From contig WELB01000319.1 of the NCBI GenBank assembly GCA_009602725.1, positions 1 to 32,979 on the forward strand: 32,979 nt of DNA, read 5' to 3'. The notes beneath the pieces are model-generated. The model was not told where the DNA came from, searched no databases, and saw only the letters and a program-made list of their open reading frames with translations. Shown piece after piece: positions 13,377 to 32,790 of the stretch (positions are counted from its first letter, which is position 1; each line of letters starts with the position of its first letter). Both the position numbers and the translations under genes were made by a program. This DNA is from Spirogloea muscicola (taxonomy: Eukaryota; Streptophyta; Zygnematophyceae; Spirogloeales; Spirogloeaceae).

Positions 13377-13671
13377 AGAAGAAGGCTCGCCCATAAAGAA
13401 AGAGGGGCTGGCAAAGCCAGCCCAAAAAGAATGGACAATGTCCAAAGCCGAAGAATGAGAAGCCGAGGAAGGACTCCTCTACTCTACCAATCACGACAAC
13501 ATACTAGGGAAGCTCAGTACCCGCGAGTGAGCAACATCAGGTCCGAGTAGCTCGAGGCAGGGAAGGAGGCACTCCGCCGAGACCCGGAGGCCGCGGCCAG
13601 AGCGCGTCCTGCGCGCGTGTGGACAGCGTGGGCAAGGGATCGCTGGAACGATACCGCCAAGCGAAAGGGCT
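13377..13671 (-). mobile_element. 5'-truncated LINE tail
   Basis: Encodes on the minus strand the last ~60 residues of the LINE protein, ending SSYSDLMLLTRGY then stop, followed by a 3' UTR with an 8-bp stem-loop (13405-13423) and the terminal word ATGGGCGAG-like (here TTATGGGCGAG). It is almost identical to 22804-23085, apart from a 5-base duplication (CTCTA) and a small deletion near its 5' end. It lies upstream of the ABC-F gene start. Confidence 0.85.
13405..13423 (-). other. LINE 3' stem-loop (best example)
   Basis: GGGCTGGC-AAA-GCCAGCCC: 8 paired bases and a 3-base loop. Equivalent stem-loops occur at 18370-18388, 21726-21741 (opposite strand) and 31713-31732, in each case 5' of the terminal GGGCGAG word when read in LINE sense. 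In 3'-hairpin LINEs such structures are recognised by the element's reverse transcriptase; that role is inferred here. Confidence 0.75.
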
Positions 13672-14088: not shown

Positions 14089-14588
14089 TTTTACTATTGT
14101 CGCCAACCTGGTCATATGATCAACAATATGTCCAGAACGGCAGGTTCTGATTGATGATTACAGAGGTAGAAGTAGCAAGAGATACAGGGGGGGCCAGGCC
14201 CCATCTATGTGGAGAACAGGTCAGGTCAACTAAACACAGTTGGCTGATTGACAGTGGCACCACGCATCACTTTACTAATCGACGTGATTGGCTAGAGAAG
14301 TATGATCGCATTGCTCCTTCCAGGGTCTTCTTGGGAGATGCTTGTGTACATCCTGTTGTTGGAGTTGGCCAAGTGCGTTTGCAGGTGCCTACTTTTAACG
14401 GCATCAATGAGCAGTTGTTGAACAATGTGTTGCATGTACCAGCACTAGCAGCACTGTTGTCTGTACCCCAGCCGCTCAAAAATGGATATTGGGTTACTTT
14501 TGAAGATGATTTCTGTGTGATTGAGAAAGATGGAGCTCTTACTCTTACCGGTAGGAGAGAGAAAGATCTCTTTATTTCGAATGAATAG
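14089..14588 (+). pseudogene. copia gag zinc-knuckle remnant and aspartic protease
   Basis: The frame from 14089 reads FYYCRQPGHMINN, a CCHC zinc knuckle that has lost its first and last cysteines. After two in-frame stops the protease follows, with catalytic DSGTT (SWLIDSGTTHHFT) and the usual downstream LLSVPQLLKNG-like segment (here LLSVPQPLKNG). It ends at DLFISNE, where the inverted insert interrupts the frame. Confidence 0.8.
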
Positions 14589-15143
14589 GTCCACAAACAT
14601 CAGTGTACTAGATCTAATAGACCAGCCCTATAATGTTCACCAGCAACTGGAGGTTGAAGATGAAGTTTACCTTGCACACAGGCTGAACAAAGCTCAGGTG
14701 AAATAGGAACAACACTCAATCTACGCACCAAGCTCTGTGTCTGTTCCATCCTCTTGCCATTAGGATGCCCCAATTGGGCATGCCATTGCTTTTCTTGTGA
14801 TATCACAGTCTGCTATGCTGACCCTGAACCTGTTCCTGTCCCCTGTCTCTGCGAATGTTGTTGTCCCTGTTCCTGTCTTTTTTTCTGTCTCTGCATCTGT
14901 TTTCTGTTTCTGTACCTGTTCATTCAGAATAAAGAGATCTTTCTCTTTCCTACCTGTAAGAGTAGGAGCTCCATCTTTCTCAATCACACAGAAATCATCT
15001 TCAAAAGTAACTCGATATCCATTTTTGAGCAGCTGGGGTACAGACAACAACTTTGCTGCTAGCGCTGGTACATGCAAGACATGGTTCAACAACTGCTCAT
15101 TGATGCCTTTCAAACTAGGCACCTGCAAACACACTTGGCCCAG
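14589..15143 (-). mobile_element. inverted extra copy of copia protease/pre-integrase segment
   Basis: The minus strand encodes a second copy of the same element region: VCLQVPSLKGINEQLLNH through DLFILNE, a Gln/Lys/Thr-rich linker, and the pre-integrase WHAQLGHPNGKRM with CSACVQGK. Each part has a diverged plus-strand counterpart outside the insert (14355-14588 and 15186-15436). It begins at an element position inside the protease and ends just after the pre-integrase (TGTGGACCTA). The flanking plus-strand sequence would be continuous in element order if this block were removed, so it is an inserted inverted duplicate, not a simple inversion. Confidence 0.85.
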
Positions 15144-17812
15144 GAACAGAGACAAAAATAACATCAGAGACATGGACAGGAACAGGTGCAGGGTCAAGCA
15201 TATCAGACTTTCATACGAGAAAATCAATGGCATGCACGATTGGGGCATCCTAATGTCAAGAGGATGGGACAGACACAGCGCTTGGTGCGTGCATTGAATG
15301 TTGTTCCTACTGAACCTGAGTTTTGTTCAGCCTGTGTGCAAGGCAAACTTCAATTTCAACCTCCAGTTGCTGGTGGACATTTCAGGTCTAGCTTTTGGTC
15401 TTTTAGATCTAGTACTCTCTGATGTTTGTGGACCTATGCAAACATCATCTTGAGGAGGGAGTAAATACATTCTCTCATTCATCGATGATGCCAGCAGGTG
15501 GAGTTGAGTATATTATCTGAAGAACAAGAGTGACGTGTTTGAAAAGTTTCAGGCTTTCAAAGCTGCAGTAGAGTTGCAAACAGGGCGAAATGTCAAGGCT
15601 CATCGATTCAACAACGGTGGAGAGTATATCTCTAAAGACTTTCAAAGCTTTTGTCAGCAACAGGGCATACATAGGCAGCTGACTGCAGCGTACCGTCCTC
15701 AACAAAACGGTGTTGCAGAAAGATGGAACAGAAGTGTGATGGAGACTGCCAGGTGGTTTTTTTCCAATTTTGTACACCACCTAAGTTTTGGGCTGAAGCA
15801 GTAGCCACTGCAGTATATCTCAGAATAGGTTACCTACTCGTGCCATTAAGAATATGACAATATATCAATACTGGACATGGAAGAAGCCTACAGTGGCTCA
15901 TCTTATGGTGTTTGGTTGTGCAGCGTGGATGCACATCCTAACTGAAACACGACACAAGCTGCAACCCAAAGCTCGACAGTGTGTCATGGTAGGCGATGGT
16001 GTCCATGTGAAAGGGTGGAAATTACTCGATCTTGAGAAGCACAGGATGGTGTCCAGAGATATAGTCTTTGGTGAGCAGAGAAGTCCAGATTACAAAGTCG
16101 ACAGTTGATTCAGTTGACTTTGTGCGGTGATGGCCTAAATCACAAGAGATTGAGATTGTGGTTGATGTGGAGACAGGGTCTGGTTCTGGCAACGGAGTGG
16201 AAGCCAGGACAACAGGCGTGGATATGGAAGAGACTACTGCTACAGTGGGAGTGTCAAGTCACAGAACAGATGCTTCGTGTTTTTGCTGTTGATGCTCTTC
16301 ATGAGCCTCTCACCATTCAGGAAGCCTTGAGTGGTGATGAAGCTGTCAAGTGGAAAGCAGCTGCCGAAGCAGAACTTAACGCCATCGATGAGAACGATTC
16401 TTGGGATCTGGTAGACTTACCAGCTAACAGGAAGGCTATTCCAAGTAAATAAGTTTTCAAGACTAAGCTAAAGAGGTGATGGATCTGTTGACAAATATAA
16501 AGCACGCCTTGTGGCCAAAGGCCGTGCACAGAAGGAAGGAATAGACTATAAAGAGACATTTGCTCCTGCATTCATACATAGTGCTATGAGGAGTTTGCTC
16601 GCCATGATTAGGAAGTAAAGCAGATGGATGTGACTATAGCTTTTCTGAATGGAGACTGAGAGGAAATTTATATGCAATTAAAGGCAAGGAGAGCAAGGTT
16701 TGCAAGCTCAAGAAATCATTGTATGGACTAAAACAGGCACCCAGAGCTCGGTATGAACAGATGGACACTTCTTTACTGCATCAAGATTTCAAGAGATCTG
16801 AAGCAGATCACAGTGTATATGTGAGAGAACCTGCCAAGGTAATTCTGGCAGTATATGTTGATAATTTTATCATTCTGGGAGATCCAGCTGTTGAAGTGAA
16901 AAGAGTGAAGGAAGAGCTGAGTGGTAGATTCAAGATGAAGGATTCAGGGCCTTTGAAGTACTTCTTGGGCACAAAAGTGATGAGAGATAGAGAAAAGATA
17001 GAGAAGCTTTTAGAGTTGGAGCTGTCGAAGTACATTACTGAAGTTCTAGACAGATTCGGTATGCAAGACTGCAATCCTATTTCCACCCCACAGGATACAA
17101 GACAAACGTTGAGCAAGGATCAGGGACCAAAGGATGATAACCAAAAGGCAAGTGGCACAAGTACCTTACAGAGAAGCAGTGGGATCCTTGATGTATGTGG
17201 CTGTGGCAGCACGTTCACACAAAGCAGCAGCAGTGGGAGTTGTTGCTCACTTGGTGGAAGATCCTGGTTCAGAACATTGGCAAGCTGTGAAAAGAATCAT
17301 GAGGTATCTGCAGGGAACCAAGAATGTCTGTTTGACATTTCAGGCAGTGGGAGACAAATGTAATGAATTGGTGGGTCTCTGTGATGCTGATTGGGCAGGA
17401 AATTTGGATGACAGGAATCCATAAAACAGGCTATGTTTTTCAGCTAGGAGGAGGTGCAGTGAGCTGGAGTAGTCGAAAACAGCAGACTGTAGCAACGTCG
17501 ACTGTAGAGGCAGAGTACATGGCTACCACTGGAGCAGCAGAGGAAGCAACCTGGTTGAGAAGACTACTTCAAGAATGTGAATTCCATGCAACTACTCTGT
17601 TCAGTGCTAGTCAAGGCAGGATTGCATTGATCAAGAATCCTGTCTATCATGTTTGTACCAAGCGTATAGAGATACAACATCATTTTATTTGAGAGAAAGT
17701 AGGAGTCATCAGAATGCAATATTGCAGTACTACTGATATGACTGCAGATATTCTGACCAAGAGGTTGCCTAAGCCCAAGTTTGATAGATGTAGAGGTACT
17801 AAATTTGGCTGA
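15144..17812 (+). pseudogene. copia pre-integrase, integrase, RT and RNase H, broken
   Basis: Pre-integrase (15217-15360) has WHARLGHPN and CSACVQGK. Integrase has DVCGP near 15421 and QNGVAERWNRSVMET near 15710, but the second catalytic Asp is Asn (FNNGGEY, near 15610). RT pieces are [15 protein letters not shown] (16495), DVTIAFLNGD (16625), LYGLKQAPRARYEQM (16719) and YVDN (near 16855), where YVDD is expected. RNase H has CDADWAGN (17380), STVEAEYMA (17500) and TKRLPKPKFDR before a TGA at 17810. Several frameshifts and stops. Two altered catalytic sites and the stops show it cannot act on its own. Confidence 0.88.
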
Positions 17813-18190: not shown

Positions 18191-18341
18191 ATGTCTGCGG
18201 CTGCGTCTGCATCTGCGCCAAGACGGGGACGGTCTGCTGGTCCTCCCACATCAAGATAGGAAGTGGCTGTAAGACATGAAGGACAGGTACAGGATGTAGA
18301 TCGTGAACAGCAGGTTCAGGTTGCAGGACAAGGAAGGCGAG
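18191..18341 (+). pseudogene. copia gag N-terminal fragment, copy 1
   Basis: ATG follows the LTR and PBS-like site, reading MSAAASASAPRRGRSAGPP, then a TAG, then a Gln/Glu/Val-rich stretch (EGQVQDVDREQQVQV). Its position fits the first codons of gag in a second element sharing this LTR. It is cut off by the LINE tail at 18342. Confidence 0.5.
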
Positions 18342-18968
18342 GAAGAAAGTGCTAGCCCATTGAGAATAGGGGCTGGAAAAGCCAGCCCAAAAAAGAATGA
18401 ACAGAGTACGAGAGAGGGCCAGGGGAATCGCTAAGAAAAACAAGCACACAGAGAAACAAAGCAGCTACGAATCACTCAGTAACCTCTGCTAAGCAACCGT
18501 AGGTCGGAGATGCTAGGCTCGTGGAAGTGGGTCCCCTGGCCGGAGCCAGAGGCAGCAGCGAGGGCTCTGCCGGCACGAAGGTGCAACGCCTGGGCCATAG
18601 ACCTCTGCAGCGAGACGGCCAGGCGCATCGATACACTTGCGCCAGCGACCCGGCTGCAGGAAAGTCTACCGGCTCCCATGGAAGCGACGGGCAATGGTGT
18701 GGCGGGCGAGCTGGGTGAGCAGCTCGAGCCACCGAGCGCCCAGCGCCCCATGGGTGTCAATGGCCAACGGGAAGAACTCGTCTTCCCGCAGATGGTCGGC
18801 GTACTTGAGCTCGTTAGCCCGAGCGGCGCAGGCGACCGCATACCCAGCCTTGGTGGCACATTGGGCTGGGTGTGAGCGGTCGTATGCATCGGTGGTCACC
18901 ACGTCAAGGAGAAGACGTGGCCCGCCGGCCTGTGGGGTGGCCACCAGGAGAGCAGGCGGAGCAAGAAA
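18342..18968 (-). mobile_element. 5'-truncated LINE copy with nuclease domain
   Basis: The minus strand encodes GGPRLLLDVVTTDAYDRS, a KAGYAV/ELKYADH segment and FFPLAIDTHGALGARWLEL, then after a frameshift VSLQRSMAQALHLRAGRALA and ISDLRLLSRGY plus stop. The 3' UTR holds a 7-bp stem-loop (18370-18388) and the terminal word CCCATTGAG in plus orientation. The 5' end abuts a second gag fragment at about 18970. The Asp of the RRADLV motif is replaced (PPALLV), so the nuclease site is decayed. Confidence 0.85.
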
Positions 18969-18974
18969 CCTTTC

Positions 18975-19117
18975 ACGCCGGTCCTCCCACATCGAGACAG
19001 GAAGTGATGGCTGTAGGACATGAGGGACAAGTACAAAGTGCAGATCGAGAACAGCAGGTTCAGGTTGTCGAAAATGAAAGACAAAGGCATGCAGAACAAG
19101 AATCATTTCAAGCATAA
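18975..19117 (+). pseudogene. copia gag N-terminal fragment, copy 2
   Basis: Reads GPPTSRQEVMAVGHEGQVQ and ADREQQVQVVENERQ before TAA. It matches gag copy 1 over about 100 bases with roughly 10-15% differences. The two copies bracket the LINE at 18342-18968. Confidence 0.6.
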
Positions 19118-19163
19118 CCACATGGAGGGAACGTTACACTTTCTGACTTGCGGCTGCCCAATG

Positions 19164-19207
19164 GAAGAAGCAGGGCTCGCCCATTGAGGATAGGGGCTGG
19201 ATAAAGG
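19164..19207 (-). mobile_element. 3' end of an interrupted LINE tail (left part)
   Basis: GGCTCGCCCATTGAGGATAG and the left hairpin arm GGGCTGG. The right arm and the rest of the same tail resume at 20991-21125, after the long LINE copy inserted between them. Confidence 0.75.
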
Positions 19208-20990
19208 AAGGAGAGAAGAAGGAAGCTCTTCCAAAGAGAGAGTGCTCGCCCATTGAGAATATTGGGAAAGGCCAGCCCAAAGGAATGGACAAGGTCTGAG
19301 GGAGCCTGAGTGCGAACGACTAGGACTAAGACGTCAGCCAGGGAACGCTCAGTAACCTCTAGTCAGGAGATGCAAGTCCGAGTAGCTAGCTGGCGGAAAG
19401 ACGTCGCCCTGACGGAAGCCGGAGGCCGCCGCCAAAGCTCGGCCTGCGCGCAAGTAAACCGCGAAGGCAAGGGACCGCTGCATCGAGACGGCCAAACGCA
19501 TATGGAACACTTGAGCGAGGGACCCGGCGACGTTGAAGCCGGGCTGCTCGCCCTGCTGCCCGAGGCGGCGGGCCGCTGCACGCCGCGCCAGGCGGTGGAG
19601 CAAGTCAAGCCATTTCGAGCCAAAGGCTCCGTGCACGTCGACTGCCAGTGGAACGAACCCGTCTCCCACCGGGTGATCCGAGTACTTCCGTTCCTTTTCG
19701 CCCGCCGCTTGGCTGACTGCGTAGCCCGCCTCCTCCGACGAGCGTTTGGAGCTGCTGGAAACGAAGCTGTCAGTTGTGACGACGTCTGCGATGAGCCGAG
19801 GTCCCCCGCCGAGCGCGCTGGCGACGAGGTCGGCGCGCCGGGTGTGGATGCGGCCATCCGCCCCAACGGTCGGAGGCATGACGCTGGTGTTCTCGAGCGC
19901 CACCGCATAACCGGCCTCGACAAAGATGCCAAACATGGCATCCCGCAGCAGGTCGTGCGTTCCTGTCCGCTCCCCGCCCCATGCGCACCTCAGCATGTGA
20001 GCTGCCAACGATGCCGCGTCGGAACCGCGCTCTCCGCGCTCACACTGCTGTACTCCACTAAGGCAGGGTGTGTGGAGGCTGAGGAGGCGGTGCACCGCCG
20101 TGCGGAAGGCGTCGTCAGGCATGCGGAGCGCATCGTGGACAGGCAGGGCACACAACCAAGCTGCCGCCCCTGGTGAGGATGCCGAGAGCAACCGCGCGCG
20201 CCCCCGGAGGTCGGCCGATGGCAAAAGCCCCATCGCCGTGGTGAAGGCGGCCGCATCTACCTCTGCCATGAAGCGAGGTTGGGCCCGGAGGTCGGCCGTG
20301 CGCGCGAGGTGCGCGAACAGGACGGCCCGTGGCACCAGGGCGGGGTGATCTGCATGCAGCGCATCCCGGGCAGAGCGTAGAGCCGCCTGGAAGGGCAAAG
20401 TGCCAGTCTCCACGTCCGCTGCCGCCTGATCCAGAAGGCGACCCCCATGCCGGATGAAACGCTGGGCCACCGACGACGCAACCTGCGCCCAGCTCCCCAG
20501 GTGGGCTGCCCGGCAGGCACGAGCCAGCGGACGGCAGCCCAGACCCCCGCGGCTCACAGGCAGGGAGGCCTGGTGCACGGCAGCCGGCGTCGCCAGGAAG
20601 GCCGGGTGCTGGACCAGGGCCGCTGCGCTGGCGAGGAGACCTGCATCAAAAGTTGCATAGGCAGCCTGCGCCGCCGGGGAGGGGGAAGGGCTCGGGCCAG
20701 GTACAGGGGACGTTGGGCTATGCTGCGCGTCAGCATGGCGAGCCCTAGCTGCATGTCGCGCAACTCCGGGAGGCGGGCCGCCGGCCTGAGGTGCTCCTGC
20801 AGCTTGTTCCGCAGCTGATCGTCCACGAAGATCGGTGATCCCAAGGGAACCCCGAGGAGTGTGAGGCCCCCCGCTGGTGTCTGACAGCCGGAGGGTAGGC
20901 GGAGGAGGGCTGGCAACCCTTGTGGGGACCAAGCGCTGCACTTCGACGCGCGGATGTCCAGGCCGATCTCCATCAGCTGCGCCTCGAGGG
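19208..20990 (-). mobile_element. longest LINE copy, 5'-truncated in the reverse transcriptase
   Basis: About 1.8 kb on the minus strand, inserted in the 3' hairpin of an older copy (19164-19207 plus 20991-21125). It retains the end of the reverse transcriptase, the nuclease domain, the C-terminal tail and a 3' UTR with GGCCAGCCC and GCTCGCCCATTGAG (plus orientation). There is no poly(A). The 5' part (RT palm with the catalytic Asp pair, any ORF1) is absent. Confidence 0.88.
19349..20990 (-). pseudogene. LINE protein: RT thumb plus PD-(D/E)XK-like nuclease
   Basis: From 20990 downwards one frame reads the region after the RT palm (EIGLDIRASKCSAW, LLGVPLGSPIFVDDQL, RPLYLARALPP). A frameshift near 20680-20695, in a C-rich run, moves to the frame that stays open to the TGA at 19349. 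That frame holds SLPVSRGGLGCRPL, then CAWGGERTGTHDLLRDAMF, RRADLVAS, LIADVVTTDS, KERKYSDH and FVPLAVDVHGAFGSKW, and ends YSDLHLLTRGY. The spaced Asp-x-x-x / Asp-Val-Val / Lys pattern is typical of restriction-like (PD-(D/E)XK) domains at the C-terminus of some LINE polyproteins. That would cut target DNA and prime reverse transcription from the nick. The nuclease call is from the motif pattern only. The first ~85 residues of the long frame (20941-20690) are out of frame and not real. Confidence 0.82.
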
Positions 20991-21125
20991 GGCCAGCCAA
21001 AAAAGAATGGACAAAATCCAAAGAGCTACAGGAGAATCACTCGGTAACCCCTGCTGAGCAGCCGCAGGTCGGAGATGCTAGGCTCGTTGAAGTGGGTCCC
21101 CTGGCCAGAGCCAGAGGCAGCAGCG
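20991..21125 (-). mobile_element. interrupted LINE tail (right part)
   Basis: Begins with the right hairpin arm GGCCAGCC, then the 3' UTR and the C-terminal codons (ending RGY stop at ACTCGGTAACC). It matches 18471-18560 closely. Truncated at about 21125. Confidence 0.75.
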
Positions 21126-21200
21126 AAGGGAGCCAGGGGAAGCGCTAAGAAACAGAAACAAAGCAGGTACAAATCACTCAGTAACCTCTGCTAAGCAGCC
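21126..21200 (-). mobile_element. LINE 3' UTR fragment
   Basis: AGCGCTAAGAAACAGAAAC and AATCACTCAGTAACCTCTGC match the 3' UTR and stop-codon region of the copy at 18342-18968. It ends abruptly in GCAGCC next to the following tail. Confidence 0.65.
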
Positions 21201-21362
21201 GGGGGGGCGAGGCTGTGAATAGCCAGCCCACAAGAAATGTACAAGGTCCAACGAAAATAGGTACCCCGACGAGACCCTGAAGTAGCAGCTGAAGCATGGC
21301 CTGCCCGCAAATGCACTGCGTGAGCTTTGAACCATTCGAAGGGAATGGATAGCCACATACCG
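21201..21362 (-). mobile_element. LINE tail, SDL-terminus deleted
   Basis: A hairpin-like GGCTGTGAATAGCCAGCCC is followed by a minus-strand coding match (AVHLRAGHASAATSGSRRGT). The last codons and stop present in other copies are missing. Confidence 0.65.
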
Positions 21363-21560
21363 AAAAAGAGAAAGTGACTTCCCCAAAGGGGCCGCTGGCT
21401 GTGAACAGCCAGCCCGAAAATAATAGACAAGGTTCTGAGGGGCCGAAAAGCGATAGAAGATGTGACACAGCAATAACCATGTGTTTTCTTCACACAATAA
21501 CCTCTAGTTAGTAGCCGCATGTCAGAAAGACTAGCCACCGGAAAGTGGTCGCCTTGACGA
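21363..21560 (-). mobile_element. LINE tail
   Basis: GGCTGTGAACAGCCAGCCC (hairpin) and the C-terminal codons (SDMRLLTRGY, stop at 21478-21490) mark another 5'-truncated copy. Confidence 0.65.
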
Positions 21561-21574
21561 ACAAGGGGGGCTTC

Positions 21575-22150
21575 TTTAAAAGGGGTGAAGGTTTAAACAG
21601 TTTCCAAATCAACAAGGTTCAACCCGAAAGAAAAGTTGGTGACCACACAGCTATGCAGCTGCTTTGTTTCTGTTTTTTAGCGCTTCCCCTGGCCCCCTTC
21701 TCGTATTCTGTTCATTCTTTTTCGGGCTGGTTTTTCCAGCCCCTGTTCTCAATGGGCGAGCACTTACTATGCAGAGACAACAGCGACTGGAAGTTGAGTA
21801 CCTCGAGTCAGCAGCCGCAAGTAGGAATAAATTGCAGCTGAAAAAGGTGGACCCTGTCCAGACCCAAAAGCAGCAGCCATGGCATGGCCTGCCCGCAAGT
21901 GCACTGCATGAGACTGGGACCGAGGAAGGATCTGGTTAGCCGCATACGGAGAACCTGGGCAAGCGACCCAGCGGCGTTGAAGCCGGGCAGCTCACCTTAC
22001 TGTCCCTGTCGACGATCAATGGCCCGCCGTGCAAGCCGCTGCAGAACGTCCAGCCTTCGACTGCCGAACGCCCCCACTGCCAGCCCCACAAAGTCATTGC
22101 CGTCTGGATGATCCTTGTACTTCCGCTCTTTGCCACTGGCAGCCTTGCCA
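21575..22150 (-). mobile_element. LINE copy hosting an antisense tail insert
   Basis: The minus strand encodes KERKYKDHPDGNDFVGLAVG, then AFGSRRLDVLQRLARRA and a degraded C-terminal tail. Its 3' UTR is interrupted at 21651-21774 by the short plus-strand tail. It is closest to the tail at 32545-32790, which shows the uninterrupted 3' UTR. Confidence 0.75.
21659..21766 (+). mobile_element. 108-bp LINE tail-only insert with 8-bp target duplication
   Basis: Contains only the 3' UTR: TTAGCGCTTCCCCTGGCCCC, the stem-loop GGGCTGG/CCAGCCC and TCAATGGGCGAGCACTTA. It is flanked by CTATGCAG at 21651-21658 and 21767-21774. The homologous tail near 32610-32650 has the corresponding word once (TTATGCAAG), i.e. 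an empty site. Confidence 0.82.
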
Positions 22151-22156
22151 AATGCC

Positions 22157-22170
22157 AAAAAAAAAAAAAA
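22157..22170. repeat. A14 homopolymer
   Basis: Fourteen A on the plus strand between two minus-strand LINE tails. It has the wrong orientation to be the poly(A) tail of either. Confidence 0.8.
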
Positions 22171-22192
22171 GAAGCGCGGCCAGATTGACTGG

Positions 22193-22425
22193 TGGCTGGG
22201 AAAGGCCAGCCCAAAGGAATGGACAAGGTCAGAGGGGGCCTGAGTGCGAAGGACTAGGACTAAGACATCAGCCAGGGAACGCTCAGTAACCTCTAGTCAG
22301 GAGATGCAAGTCCGAGTAGCTAGCTGGCGGAAAGACGTCGCCCTGACGGAAGCCGGAGGCCGCCGCCAAAGCTCGGCCTGTGCGCAAGTGAACCGCAAAG
22401 GCAAGGGACCGCTGCCAGAGGCTGC
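22193..22425 (-). mobile_element. LINE tail, close relative of the long copy
   Basis: Nearly identical to the 3' end of the long copy (about 19256-19490), including GGCCAGCCCAAAGGAATGG, the stop region and YSDLHLLTRGY. 5'-truncated at about 22425. Confidence 0.82.
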
Positions 22426-22485
22426 AGCTTGAGCACGGCCAGCACGCAGTTGCAAGGCGTGGGCCATGGAAATGCGTGTATATTA

Positions 22486-22625
22486 AGAGATGGGGAGGCC
22501 ATGTGTGGCCAAGTACAAAGGCAAGCATATTGGACAGATGTACGTCACCTGCTGCTAAGCTGACCCGCTCAGTAACCACGAGTCAGCACATAGAGGTCGC
22601 TAGCTGACGCTCGAATACCGGACGG
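22486..22625 (-). mobile_element. LINE tail, third 3'-UTR subtype
   Basis: Encodes SDLYVLTRGY stop on the minus strand, followed by CGGGTCAGCTTAGCAGCAGG. The same subtype is found in an intron at 28677-28775. Confidence 0.7.
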
Positions 22626-22748
22626 CAATGGAGGGAGATGAACAGGTGCATGCACATGCGCTTGCAATACACCTGCATCCCAACACCTGGGACTGCCTCT
22701 CACAGCCATTGCCTTACATTGGAAGAGCTCTTTGGATGATTTGTAGCT

Positions 22749-23215
22749 GCTTTCTTTCTTTGTGTGCTTTGGTTTCTTAGCGCTTCCTCTGGCTTCCTCT
22801 GGCAGAAGAAGGCTCGCCCATAAAGAAAGAGGGGCTGGCAAAGCCAGCCCAAAAAGAATGGACAATGTCCAAAGCCGAAGAATGAGAAGCCGAGGAAGGA
22901 CTCCTCTACCAATCACGACAACATACTAGGGAAGCTCAGTACCCGCGAGTGAGCAACATCAGGTCCGAGTAGCTCGAGGCAGGGAAGGAGGCACTCCGCC
23001 GAGACCCGGAGGCCGCGGCCAGAGCGCGTCCTGCGCGCGTGTGGACAGCGTGGGCAAGGGATCGCTGGAACGATACCGCCAAGCGCATGCGAAAGACCTG
23101 GGCGAGCGACCCGGCGGCGTTGAAGCCGGGCTGGCCCCCTTCTCGTTCTTTGTTCATTCTTTTTTGGGCTGGCTTGTCCAGCCCCTATCCTCAATGGGCG
23201 AGCCCTTTCTTCTTT
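22749..23215 (+). mobile_element. plus-strand LINE tail split by another LINE copy
   Basis: The left part (22749-22803) ends GCGCTTCCTCTGGC, with a local TTCCTCTGGC duplication. The right part (23131-23215) starts CTGGCCCCCTTCTCG and continues through the stem-loop to CAATGGGCGAGCCC. Joined, they match the intact tail at 21659-21766 in order. The minus-strand copy 22804-23130 lies between, with CTGGC on each side. Confidence 0.8.
22804..23130 (-). mobile_element. 5'-truncated LINE tail inserted in a plus-strand tail
   Basis: Minus strand: FNAAGSLAQVFRMRLAVSF, RAGRALAAASGSRRS and SSYSDLMLLTRGY stop, then the 3' UTR with stem-loop. Almost identical to 13377-13671 but extends about 45 bases further 5'. 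Confidence 0.85.
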
Positions 23216-23953: not shown

Positions 23954-26900
23954 ATGGAGGTCGCTGGCGCCGAGACGGCTGGCCACCGACGACGCGCGAG
24001 CTCGTCCGGGACCCCGCCGGAGCTGCCGGACGTCTACGTGGTGGAGCGCGGCGCCCCGGCCGTCATCGACCTCCTGGACAACGACCGCGAGGCTGCGATA
24101 GCGCAGCATCGCCCGTCCGCGGAGGACCTGCACGACGCCATAGAGACTCTCGTGGCCATCTTCCCGACGCTGACATGCGAGGCCGCACGGATGCACCTGT
24201 CGGCCGCCATGGACAGCCTTCCTCTGCAGGCGGCGCTGGAGGTTGTGCTCGAGAGGTTCCTCAGTGGTGACTGCCCGACACCACCTCAGGAGGTCTCTGC
24301 AGCTGAAGGCCTCCGTGAAGCACAGGCTCTGGACAGGCAGACAGGCCCTGGATTGCTCACAAAGGAGGAGCTCTTCAGGATCGAGCCGCCGCCACTCGAA
24401 GCCGGGCAGGCTTACGCCGACTGGTGCTTGCTGACGCTGTCCAACGAGTTTCCCACGATATCCAAAGCGGACTTAAGGAGAGCGCTGAAATCACATGCAG
24501 GCCGGATCGCTCCAACACACAGCTCACTGATGCTTGAGTTGCAGCGAATGGCCGAAGCAGATTCTGGCTCAACAAGTGGCACGGAAGCAGGTACTTCTAT
24601 ACCTGCTTTGTTTTATAACATGGCAACAGTCATAGTAAACGGGCTGTCAGAAACTCGCTGAAGCAGAGGGCCTCCACTTCGGATGTTGAATCTACTACAA
24701 CTATGACCAATTTGATACTGTTGTTGCCATGTGCCCTAGCTGCTAGCTACTCAGTATCTGCTGTTTGCTGCAGGGCCACCCACTGCGGGGTGGCTGAGGA
24801 ACAAGCCGCTGGTCCTGACTAAAAGGAGAAGGAGGTTGTCCTCAACTACTAACTCTCATATCAGCATCCACTTTGAGGCAGAGTGGTCAGCGCTGCAGAG
24901 GTTGTATGTCAAGGATCAAGAGCTGCGTGACATGCAGCTGGCAAAGAGATACAACGACGAGCAGTACGAGAAGGAAAGTCAGCACATCGAGTGCGGCTGC
25001 TGCTGTGGCGAGTTCTCCTTTGAGGATATGGTGCAGGTAAGGCCAGAGTATAGCAGCACTGCTAGCAGTGGTAACCAAGCTCTCTTGTGATGTCACTCCT
25101 GTGACACCCTGCAGTAATTGAGAAGAAACGCCAATAGACAAATTGAAGTATGTAGCTCTACTGGATGCTCCTGGTTGCAGTGTGCAGATGGTCATCTCTT
25201 CTGCTTCAGTTGCCTGAGGAGAAGGATCGAGGAGTCCACGTTTGGCGGAATGTCAGCCACTGGAGCTCTTCCCTGCATGGCAACAGATGGTTGTGACGAG
25301 TTATTTCCTGGCGCCGAGGTCAGTCAAGTGGGCCTCACCGGAACATATCTGTATAGGCCGCCCAAATACAACACAAGGCCTCTTTGGATGCAAATGCATG
25401 AAGAAGTATGTGGTCTTGCTCATGTGGCATCCAGTGTGGCGTTCAGTAGCACCTTCAGACTGTTTCTATTGCGGTATGTACTCGTGGCTGGTGACATGGT
25501 CTTGTTTTCGAGCAGGTCAGGCGAGCCCTACCTGCTGATATCCTCGACAATTACGAGCAGCGGCAGGCACAGTTTGCAATTCAACAGGCAGGCCTTGTTG
25601 GTCTGGTATGCCCTTTCCATTGTACACAAGTTCTTGTTGTGGAGCACTCGTGTGCTGGACAGTGCAGCTACTTTACTGCACACAGCAACCGGTCAACCAT
25701 GATATATCAGCACTTCGTCTTGGTTGTGCTCTGTGATTGCGACTCCCATGTGACATTGTAATCGCAGGTGTACTGCCCCTTCTGTGACTTTGCAGTGGAG
25801 CTCCATGAGGACCAGAGAGTTTTGGATTGTCCGAATCAATCTTGCCTGAAGGTCAGTATCCTTCTTTGTTGTTCAATGAGGCATGCTTGGTCGATCTAGT
25901 GACTTGTATTGTCTGATGGGAAAATTGCAATTTGGATAAAAAGATGTCAGTGGGCCATTAATCATGCAACCTTTACTCTTGATGATGCACTTGCTAGGTC
26001 AATCTTTGAAATGACCTCTATGGCCATATTGCAACAGACTGCCCTGTACAGGCTATCATTCATGTCTCCAAAGTTGGTGGGCAGTCCTCTTGCAGGCATT
26101 GCAAAGAGGCGAGTCACTTACCCTTCCGCTGCGAAGAGATTGAGAAGGTACCCCTTGGCAAGTATTGCTTTTGGCAAGTATTGTTTACTGAGACATGCTC
26201 TGGTAGATAATGAGATTCTGTTGTGTTGGACATGTTGGCATCAAGTTCTCCAAGCACAAATCTTCCAAATCTTGAGAAGCCAAATGCTAGGGTAATCTCT
26301 TGATGAGCATGCAGCGAGGGCGCAAGGGGCTGGGGTTTGTTTGCAGTGGAGTCCTGAGACTAGCTCATTATTGTTACATATATGCAAGTTTGCTTGTGCT
26401 TATCAAAGAGTTCACTTGTCATATTCACAGAAATCTGAGACTAATGTGAGAACAAAGATTGAAGAGGTATTGCATCCTGTTCCTGAATCCTGCAAACCTG
26501 ACCCTTGCATATTATTTTTGAAAGATGTCCCTGCTGCTTACTGCCACTCCACCATGTCTTAGTAGCCTACTTCTCATATTCTTCTCCTCCTTATTCGTCT
26601 TCAATTACTACAACTGCTTCTTGTACTTTCGTTTATCTTCCTCTGCCAGACATATGGTCCCTATAGTCATCGATTCTGAATGAAGCTGTAATGTTATTCT
26701 GCAGCTAATGACGAAAGCTTTGGTCCGACAGTGCCCACACTGCTCTGCTGAACTCATCAAGAGTGATGGCTGCAACAAGGCAAGTGCTGCCATTAGTCTT
26801 TGAGCTTATTTTTTAGCCAGGGACTCTCCAAAGACTCTTAAAATTATCATCACAGGTGTCACTTTCAGCCTCACAAGTTCATGACATGGTGGCAACAGAT

Positions 26901-27757: not shown

Positions 27758-29374
27758 TCATAACTTGCTTACCATGGGCGATTGCTTTGATTCTACTCGT
27801 TCAAGCAGTGCATTCTGGATATAGCTCGTCATCATCAGGGTGACATCCACCCCAGCAGCAGCTGTGTCATGGTCAGCAGTATGCATCAATGTCGCTTTGA
27901 GGGCAGGAGGCGATGGTAGTGGGGGCCCGCCACCAAGCTCAACACCTTCATTCGTCATAACATGCTCGCTCCTGATTGCAAGAAGGAAGATGCTACAGGG
28001 CATTGCCGGACTGAGCGAATGAATGCCCTTGTTTGTGCTGGCATCAGCCAAGATGCTTCGCTGCCATGAAAAACAGCCATCACGGGTGCCTGGCTGGTAC
28101 ATTTCAGCAACACAGCCCAAATGACATGCTCATCGCTCCTGGCCCAGGCTCCATGGCACTGCTTGCGCAATTTCGTCCAAGTGCACTGGTTGTAAGACCA
28201 TAGCACATGCCATGCAGCTCTCACTCACAGTCCACCTCGGCGCGACGGGCGGCAGTGAGTGACTGCCAACCCATTCAGCATGCGCCTCTAACTCCAGCCT
28301 ACGCCGCTGCCTCTGAGGAAGGCCAGGTTCCGCGCGCCCGGCACGTGGCCAGCCCCTCGTGGCTCTACCGATGGTATGTCTGGCGGACCTGCGGCAGGGT
28401 CTTCTTGCCGATGTACGCGCAGTAGGCCGACTTGCACGTGCTCGTCTTGTAGTATGAGCCACGCGACTTGCTCACGCCAGTGCCCGCCTGTCCTGATGGT
28501 ACCGAGAAGGTCTGCCAGATCAAACCAGCCAGAAAGAGGGAGAAGGCAGGGGGAAAGAAAGGGAGGAGGGTTTGAAAGAGATGAAGAAAGGGGAGGGAGT
28601 GGAGGCAGGAGGAGGAGAGAGAGGAGGAGAGCAGGGGGCAAGAGAGGGAGGGAATGGAGTGTATAGTGAGTGATGGAGGGCCTGAGTGGCTAAGTACAAT
28701 GGCAAGCACGTTGAAAGATGCACATCACCTGCTGCTAAGCTGACCCGCTCAGTAATCACGAGTCAGCACGTAGAGGGAGGGGAGGAGAGAGAATCAGTCA
28801 GACAGAAGCGGGAACTTTGTCGAGCAATGGGCAAGGCCCTTCCCTGCACCCAAGCACCAGACAGCCAGCAGTACCACAGGCTGCCGCACGGGCCCTCGGA
28901 GCAAGCCTCCATTGGGCACTCACAGGACCAATGAGGCGCTCACCGCGCAGAGGAAGCAGGCCCCGAGGCCCGGCGGCGTGAAGTCGGAGGAGCACCCGTT
29001 GCCGCAGTTGGTGAGCCCTGCAAGCTCCCTCCGCCGCTCCTGCTCAGGCGCAACACCAGAGTCAGAGTCAGGGGCAGAGCAGCGTCGTCAGCGCCAGCTT
29101 GAGCGTCAGCGTCAGCGCCAGCACCTCGATGAGGGGGCTCTGCCTTGCGAAAGACGCAGGCCCAACTGGCAAACTCAGCGACTGCCTCCGCCGCCGCCGC
29201 CGCCGCCGCCATCGCAGGCAGCGGGACCAGCGCGGCGCGGGGGGGCCGAGGCCTCCAAAGGCGGGCTGGCGGGCGCACCTCGGCCGCGAAGTCAATGTCG
29301 TCGAGCTCCACAGCGTGGCCGTGCGCGAGCGGGGAGTCGCCGCGCGCGGTCGCGAGCCGCGGNGGGGCCGCCAT
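27758..29374 (-). CDS. small cysteine-rich protein, not recognised (4 exons)
   Basis: Proposed exons (minus strand): 29374-29279, 29039-28944, 28487-28369, 27971-27758, giving 174 residues with consistent phase. Exon 1 is MAAPPRLATARGDSPLAHGH followed by ELDDIDFAAE (one residue depends on the 'n' at 29363). Exon 2 carries NCGNGCSSDFTPPGLGACFL then Cys; exon 3 carries YYKTSTCKSAYCAYIGKK. The six cysteines (CxxxC, CxxC, CxxxxC) could bind zinc or form disulfides. No signal peptide is evident. The stop lies 47 bases from the stop of the convergent RBR gene. A donor-like ATG|GTAAGC at 27773/27772 leaves the 3' end open. The exon 2-3 model is supported by a duplicate with the same splice sites at 31000-31400. 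Function unknown. Confidence 0.55.
28531..28676. repeat. purine-rich tract in intron 2 of the cysteine-rich gene
   Basis: About 145 bases of mostly G/A on the plus strand (GGAGGAGGAGAGAGAGGAGG), i.e. a long pyrimidine tract on the transcribed strand. It could assist splicing of the large intron or be a decayed microsatellite. Confidence 0.6.
28677..28775 (-). mobile_element. LINE tail in intron 2 of the cysteine-rich gene
   Basis: Matches 22486-22600 at about 80%: CCTGCTGCTAAGCTGACCCG and the C-terminal codons (YVLTRDY stop). It is absent from the corresponding intron of the duplicate at 31130-31290. Confidence 0.7.
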
Positions 29375-31686: not shown

Positions 31687-31754
31687 AAGAAGGCCTTGCC
31701 CACAGAGGATAGGGGCTGGGAAAGGCCAGCCCAAGGAAAAAGCATGTACATGAA
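31687..31754 (-). mobile_element. 68-bp LINE tail-only insert with 11-bp target duplication
   Basis: Contains only the stem-loop (31713-31732, GGGCTGG/CCAGCCC) and the 3' terminus (minus strand GGGCAAGGCCTTCTT). It is flanked by CTTCTGCATAG at 31676-31686 and 31755-31765. It sits in the 3' end of the older LINE tail that continues from 31766. Confidence 0.8.
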
Positions 31755-31765
31755 CTTCTGCATAG

Positions 31766-32222
31766 CAAGGCGATGGTTGTGAGAGGCCAGCCAGAAGAGA
31801 CGAACAAAGTATGATGGTCGAAAGGAGCAACTGAATGACTTCTAGTCAACAAATGCAGATCGGGTTTCTAGCGAGCGGAAAAGCGTCGCCCAGTCAGAAT
31901 CGGGAGGCAGCAGCCAAGGAGCGGCCTGCCAAAAGCGCACGGCGAATGCAAGGAACGCTGCTGAGCGATGGTGAGGAGCATTCGGTACACCTGAGCGAGC
32001 AATCTGACGGCGTTGAATCGGGCTGCTCGCTCTGCTGCCCTTGACAGCGGGTCACTGCTCGCGGCTCTTTCTGCTGGAGTAGGACGAGCTCTTTTTGCTG
32101 GAGTAGGACGAGCCACCGAGACTCAAAAAGCCTCGTGGGCGTCGACCGTAAGCGCAACGAAGATGTCGCCAGCAGGATAATTTGCATGCTTCCGCTCCTT
32201 GGCACCTGCCACTTGGCCGACT
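31766..32222 (-). mobile_element. LINE copy within intron 1 of the pseudogene
   Basis: The minus strand encodes AGAKERKHANYPAGDIFVAL, then after a stop VRLLAQVYRMLLTIAQQRSL and a degraded tail ending PDLHLLTRSH. A local 18-base duplication (CTTTTTGCTGGAGTAGGACG / TTTCTGCTGGAGTAGGACG) lies at 32068-32110. The hairpin remnant is GAGAGGCCAGCC near 31780. Confidence 0.75.
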
Positions 32223-32224
32223 TG

Positions 32225-32285
32225 GCTGTCCATACCTTTTTGGGGGCTGGCCAGTCACAGCCATCGCCCTCTTTTGGAAGAGTCT
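32225..32285 (+). mobile_element. plus-strand LINE 3' tail fragment
   Basis: GGGGGCTGGCCAGTCACAGCC and ATCGCCCTCTTTTGGAAGAG resemble the 3' hairpin and terminus in opposite orientation to the neighbouring copy. Confidence 0.5.
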
Positions 32286-32544
32286 TTCTTCAACAGCACA
32301 GGCTGCCGCTGCGGGCAGCGGGCCAGCATGGCGGGCGGCCGAGGCCTCAGAAAGGAGAGAGTGCTGACGCTAAGTCGAGCTCCGAAGCCGTGCGCAAACG
32401 ACACGTATTGCGGGCGAGAGGCGCTCAGCCACCGCTGCCGACGGCGTCGCTGTGGCGAGGAGTGGCGGCGAAGTGGCTGACATAGCCGCCGTTGCGGAGA
32501 TGTAGAAGCTGTTCCACTAGGAGGCCGAGGTGAAGAATGTAGCA

Positions 32545-32790
32545 CTTCAAAAGGGAGCAGGGGCTGCGAATGGCCAGGCCAGAAAGGATGAACAAGATCC
32601 AAAGGGCCAGAAGCCGTCAAAAGCACACAATTATGCAAGAGACTACAGCGACTAGGAGCCGAGTTACCCCAAGTCAGCAGCAGTAAGTCGGAGTAACTTG
32701 CAGCTGGAACAGAGGCACCCCGACGAAACCCAGAAGCAGCAGACATCGTGCAGCCTGGAGAGAAGGCGCGCGGTGCGCATGAGATTAAAG
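32545..32790 (-). mobile_element. LINE tail (empty-site reference copy)
   Basis: GGCTGCGAATGGCCAGGCC (hairpin-like) is followed by the 3' UTR and minus-strand codons SAASGFRRGASVPAASYSDL then LLLTWGN. Its 3' UTR is uninterrupted at the position where the copy at 21575-22150 carries the 108-bp insert. Confidence 0.75.

Follow-up and report, generated by a model that had tools for sequence, protein, structure and literature searches.

The 32,979 bp contig WELB01000319.1 of Spirogloea muscicola (Zygnematophyceae), hereafter the window, carries at 18342-23215 a nest of copies of a long interspersed nuclear element (LINE), i.e. a non-LTR (long terminal repeat) retrotransposon with a predicted R2-like, restriction-like endonuclease at the C-terminus of its protein. 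Insertions of this element prefer the 3' tails of its own family, a preference that the data support in addition to regional clustering, and related LINEs with this endonuclease probably insert their truncated copies into own-family tails by tail-guided retention. A sequence-only reading of the window had described the nest as one LINE family inserting repeatedly into its own 3' ends. The nest is real: 73% of its bases are matched by models of the element's tail and coding end, against 14.5% window-wide (E<1e-3; an 88-position tail profile, and the element's open reading frame, ORF, as protein query). Its copies are 5'-truncated, lie on both strands with the minus strand commoner, and retain the ORF end and the 3' untranslated region (UTR) or less. 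They do not form one family, as had been described, but several related subfamilies: comparing the window with itself yields 51 matches, many of them between nest copies, with 66-98% identity between matched copies.

The insertion-site test covers a single subfamily, of whose exact 3' ends roughly half were used. A 22-base pattern for the 3' end of this subfamily has 208 exact matches in the genome (153.1 Mb, 471 contigs), and the reversed pattern, used as control, has none. From the 208, 100 ends across 41 contigs are listed, for which 700 bases of 3' flank were taken; one identical duplicate was removed, leaving 99 insertions. Family 3' ends, with the own locus excluded, formed a library to which the first 60 bases of each flank were aligned, and the junction was positioned relative to the tail box. 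Positions -100 to +12 are termed the tail range (the last ~110 bp) and positions -400 to -100 the interior. Controls were drawn from a random background (20 stretches of 2.5 kb from a subset of contigs), from local points 200-700 nucleotides (nt) downstream in the sampled loci, and from CTT-matched sites (1200 in the random stretches, 1200 in nearby DNA). Among shuffled flanks the count is 1 of 125.

Forty of the 99 insertions fall in the tail range, compared to 26 of 1079 random points (2.4%; Fisher p 8e-30) and 104 of 792 local points (13%; Fisher p 5e-10). The excess in the last bases of the element, suspected from the nest, is thus borne out against random points; it extends beyond this nest, is strongest in the tail and surpasses what clustering would give. 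CTT-matched sites lie in tails in 52 of 1200 random and 249 of 1200 local cases, which leaves the insertions 9.3-fold (p 6e-24) and 1.9-fold (p 2e-5) above, respectively. With overlapping loci also excluded from the library the counts become 41/99 against 26/1079, 104/792, 60/1200 and 254/1200 (CTT folds 8.3 and 2.0), and when 10 flanks that neighbour or resemble others are removed, 33 of the remaining 89 insertions lie in tails (p=7e-4 against CTT-matched local sites). The tail profile alone, which misses short remnants, assigns 28 of 99 insertions to tails (13.7% of local and 3.5% of random windows), and a plain motif count points in the same direction (36/99 against 3.2% and 8.1%). Six pairs among the 100 flanks align from the junction at E<=1e-10, one of them being the dropped exact duplicate.

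Under a priming-only explanation, the CTT-rich RNA end would anneal to nicked ends reading AAG, and a high pyrimidine content would be what makes tails a target. The target starts with CT in 14 and with TT in 10 of 36 mapped sense targets, which fits a nicked end reading AG that primes on a CU-rich RNA end, and the sense bias of the tail insertions (29 of 40) disappears against CTT-matched tail sites (41 of 52 random, 221 of 249 nearby). This explanation is nevertheless improbable, as tails are still struck above CTT-matched sites, random as well as local. Sense bias was dropped as proof of pairing between RNA and DNA, since the CTT motif accounts for it.

Regional effects are present as well. 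Among the 100 listed ends, six pairs of neighbouring same-subfamily ends are less than 1 kb apart (~0.14 expected; one pair, L071/L072, may be a local duplication), and family density remains high for hundreds of bases past the insertion. Both features are in line with a safe landing zone, in which insertion is broad, copies survive only among relatives and nests are the leftover of selection. Under such a zone one would not expect the last ~110 bp to be struck 3.1-fold above the DNA 200-700 nt away while the interior stays at the local level (10/99 insertions, 74/792 local points; p 0.46). Nor would one expect 8 hits at one exact position in the genome-wide counts, in which the 16-base tail end has 399 copies (exact pattern), the target box TCAATGGGCGAGC 6963 occurrences and the intact 26-base target site 4198 exact copies. 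The motif CAATGGGCGAGC follows within 14 bases after the tail in 23 of the 399 copies (0.14 expected under uniform insertion), and 8 of these 23 share one exact position before the box (0.005 expected); the resulting folds are upper values, since a uniform model takes neither clustering nor composition into account and the two box patterns are not identical, with one base different at the start. The antisense pattern has no match in the genome, but it tests the box from its other side and does not mirror the sense pattern cleanly. Of the two alternatives offered by the sequence-only reading, own-tail choice is therefore supported and a tolerant landing zone holds in part, as regional clustering; as the full account of the nests the landing zone is unlikely.

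Positions within the tail were mapped from 46 sense hits among 125 insertion points. Eight of the hits directly precede the hairpin (-52 to -41), three are in the hairpin loop at -33 or -32, and eleven before the tail box at -25 to -14; at these places CT or CTT is a frequent reading of the target. The sampled new copies finish in a CTT-rich tail. Upstream flanks were read over 1.8 kb for 16 tail-targeted copies and over 0.6 kb for another 40, of which 30 have no clear tail target. A number of copies have short target duplications recognisable by eye, in non-family DNA e.g. CTGGCAAAG (L051), CTACTAGC (L067) and CTAGAG (L113), and a clear duplication within a family tail is CTATCCTCA (L086). 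Copies in tails have a median length of 79 bp (n=26) and those elsewhere one of 96 bp (n=30; p 0.44), with a few lengths being lower limits where the sequence stretch or a run of N ended, and one tail target (L085) assigned by eye; the idea that homologous targets force shorter copies was dropped on these medians. Among 51 copies whose 5' flank can be read, 10 have a sense tail box up to 45 bases upstream, so that insertion at or near the tail end happens too. Five sense insertions (L006, L011, L033, L034, L104) are located in the coding end shortly before the stop codon, spanning 14 bases, and may mark a second preferred site.

The window itself contains two events that can be read through their flank joins. 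The first is a 327-bp 5'-truncated copy on the minus strand (22804-23130), which splits the 3' UTR of a copy on the plus strand and is bracketed by a CTGGC duplication at 22799-22803 and 23131-23135. The 5' half of the interrupted copy (3' UTR, 22737-22803, from self-matching) and its 3' half with hairpin and tail box (23131-23215; tail model at 23144-23206, E 9.5e-16) join to an uninterrupted 3' end, which aligns to the flank of another sampled locus (L095); against a random locus (L146) the 22803/23131 join scores 140, the halves alone 69 and 86. The inserted copy is 96-98% identical to 39 other full-length genomic matches scored, from a genome query in which 40 of 3598 first-look candidates were scored (47 matches). 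A second set of insertions from this 327-bp query, which is length-chosen and biased and leaves out four copies overlapping the first set, lies in family DNA in 14 of 26 cases, 9 of them in the tail range. The second event is a ~1.79-kb copy on the minus strand (19205-20991; ORF end and 3' UTR, coding matches 19352-20988), inserted in sense into the hairpin loop of another minus-strand copy. The 5' part of the latter occupies 20992-21130 (tail model positions 11-52 at 20991-21032), its 3' part with the remaining hairpin and the tail box 19163-19204 (tail model positions 53-83 at 19173-19203). Joining 19204 to 20992 restores the hairpin and aligns to an uninterrupted copy in a random locus (L147) with a score of 151 (halves 127 and 36). 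The sequence-only claim that copies interrupt each other in the 3' UTR or hairpin accordingly stands for these two events. Most of the nest does not separate into single events: four further trial joins gave weak or no support. The 1.79-kb insert also shows that the nest copies, truncated as claimed, are not all very short.

Tail-in-tail arrangements could also arise without insertion, through recombination or slippage or because one composite copy was amplified. Homology between insert and target favours recombination, and some composites (L037, L040) are without a recognisable upstream target half. For the resolved events this is contradicted by the opposite-strand insert at 22804-23130 with its duplication and restored site; moreover, few flanks are alike, and the letters of inserted and target tail differ in several cases (e.g. 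L037, L084, L085). An origin without insertion is highly improbable.

One copy of the element (L151 joined to L002) has a single ORF of 1393 amino acids, followed by 141 bases to the cut. The ORF contains a reverse transcriptase at residues 667-862 of the first piece (RVT_1, PF00078; E 2.2e-11) and a proline-rich N-terminus with two C2H2-like motifs seen by eye; Pfam at E<=1 reports neither a zinc-finger match nor an apurinic endonuclease in the ORF and gives no match to its C-terminal part. The structure of this part was predicted from a 9-row alignment. Foldseek ranks R2 proteins first to sixth with the C-terminal model, five at E<0.001, and VIA-align places R2 entries at ranks 1-7 of 50 listed (Z 9.3-11.7); a single-protein search of solved structures gave no match. 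Spliceosome chains come next in the VIA-align ranking (Z up to 7.8), which we take to be Prp8. A likeness between Prp8 and this kind of endonuclease is stated in the title of PMC5678591. The motif R-x-D-[LI]-V-x with a D 11 residues on is present in 7 of 9 aligned rows, and a CxC..HxxxC motif in 4 of 9, with the window's own row devoid of the second cysteine. Folding of four tails was better than that of shuffles in two (z -3.0, -2.9) but not in the other two (0.4, -0.5), and no consensus RNA structure was found in a 10-tail alignment.

Several points weigh against tail-guided retention. The interior is struck 2.6-fold above random points (10/99 against 42/1079; p=0.009), and much of the effect is regional, since the strictest local control leaves an excess of 1.9-fold only. 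The orientation of the insertions gives no independent support, as CTT-matched control sites are equally or more often in sense. Tails of clearly different subfamilies are struck too, which weakens strict pairing between RNA and DNA. Many copies show no readable target duplication when their upstream flanks are read by eye, and pLDDT averages just 46 over the endonuclease model, with blocks of 50-75 across about residues 211-370.

Under tail-guided retention, a protein that carries the tail of its own RNA would be retained at DNA copies of that tail, which may be recognised by the same protein surface or by pairing with the RNA tail. The protein would nick the strand with a 3' end reading AG or AAG, and the nicked end would prime on the CU-rich RNA end. 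As 5' truncation is severe, the median of the measured copies being below 100 bp, insertion would then leave mostly bare tails, which are new targets, so that nests may grow by feedback. Part of the tail effect is regional, and selection or chromatin may be behind it. Tentatively, and with less confidence, the element could be an R2-type LINE that now uses its own tail in place of a fixed target in the host, with a homology-guided ribonucleoprotein that would find tail DNA by RNA-DNA pairing or through one protein surface for both tail RNA and tail DNA, and with each insertion serving as a new target. If true, self-targeting would explain how a LINE stays abundant while it often strikes only its own dead copies. 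The system bears on the way in which LINEs with restriction-like endonuclease gain, lose or change their target, and its many short young copies, limited set of target sites and many empty sites (4198) make target choice and 5' truncation readable per nucleotide.

Nesting itself is known from Zepp and Zepp-like LINEs of Chlorella, Coccomyxa and Chlamydomonas, which insert into existing copies and form arrays of mainly truncated 3' ends (PMC8226300, PMC3446292). The Spirogloea element nests into existing copies like Zepp, yet it is not a member of that group, since Zepp-like elements are grouped with chlorophyte L1 LINEs (PMC8226300) and the Spirogloea element has an R2-like C-terminal endonuclease, a CTT-rich end and, according to Pfam, no apurinic endonuclease. 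Zepp of Coccomyxa forms one cluster per chromosome (PMC3446292), whereas the listed Spirogloea copies are dispersed, with 8 on contig C48 (106-744 kb), contigs not being equal to whole chromosomes. LINEs with restriction-like endonuclease (CRE, R2, R4, NeSL, HERO) mostly target rRNA genes, other RNA genes or microsatellites, and many HERO elements are non-specific (PMC4640811). With the R2 group the Spirogloea element shares one long protein with reverse transcriptase and a predicted C-terminal R2-like endonuclease; it differs in striking its own tails, a target not named in the accessible part of PMC4640811, and from R2 proper in having no 28S rDNA specificity, given the diversity of the 100 flanks, with family tails making up 40 of 99. 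In the stringent-type elements UnaL2 and ZfL2 the tail is recognised as RNA by the element's own protein through a 3' stem-loop (PMC4176376). A possible hairpin near the 3' end of the Spirogloea element resembles this feature, but choice of tail DNA as target is not described in the accessible part of that paper. BLAG elements of the German cockroach are non-site-specific, R2-like and randomly located (PMC7650587); the Spirogloea element is similar in its R2-like protein without rDNA specificity and differs in its location in tails. Among the titles and abstract openings listed by literature searches of one library, no earlier element with restriction-like endonuclease targeting its own tail was found.

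The remaining nest is composed of further truncated copies, identified with the tail and coding models. A minus-strand copy at 18342-19004 has its tail at 18348-18411 and its coding end at 18479-19004, and a minus-strand stretch at 21209-21453 comprises a coding fragment flanked by two tail fragments (21209-21253, 21377-21453). A plus-strand copy at 21657-21768 (tail 21701-21764, also found by self-match) has minus-strand copies on either side; its removal makes the flank join only partly better. Minus-strand coding-end fragments follow at 21800-22155, and another minus-strand copy with tail (22172-22249) and coding end at 22172-22417, of which 22197-22415 is 97% identical to 19263-19481; a trial join around this copy was uninformative. 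Of the copies proposed outside the nest, three are recovered: a diverged minus-strand coding-end fragment near 880 (701-1012; E 6e-10, 37.5% identity to residues 1285-1381), a minus-strand copy at 13377-13663 (98% identical to 22804-23085; self-match and models), and a second small nest in the proposed region 31687-32790, modelled at 31691-32755 with tails at 31691-31751 (minus), 32227-32285 (plus) and 32540-32611 (minus) besides coding fragments. The fourth, at 28677, fails, being without tail or coding match: it belongs to a separate repeat (28651-28776), 84% identical to 22468-22596 and mostly beyond the tail and ORF models. Ends resembling this repeat, with GGCCAtttGGCC, occur after several insertions.

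Elsewhere in the genome, internal telomere-like repeats (TTTAGGG / CCCTAAA) have family tail pieces in or beside them at two loci, L152 (G000:C1:1289692-1291492) and L164 (G000:C77:314881-316681), and 5.8S rRNA at L168 (G000:C139, near 279418-279571) is directly adjoined by a family 3' end plus one unknown base, perhaps as an assembly join. Other features of the window comprise an 85% direct repeat on either side of one copy (18236-18323 and 18977-19067), which is part of a different repeat, inverted repeats at 14367-15440 (84% and 91% identical across 304 and 236 alignment columns), a Copia-type reverse transcriptase fragment at 16719-17363 (RVT_2, E 4e-26), and a probable host gene at 23954-25702 (CUE domain, E 5e-5; weak RING-like match).

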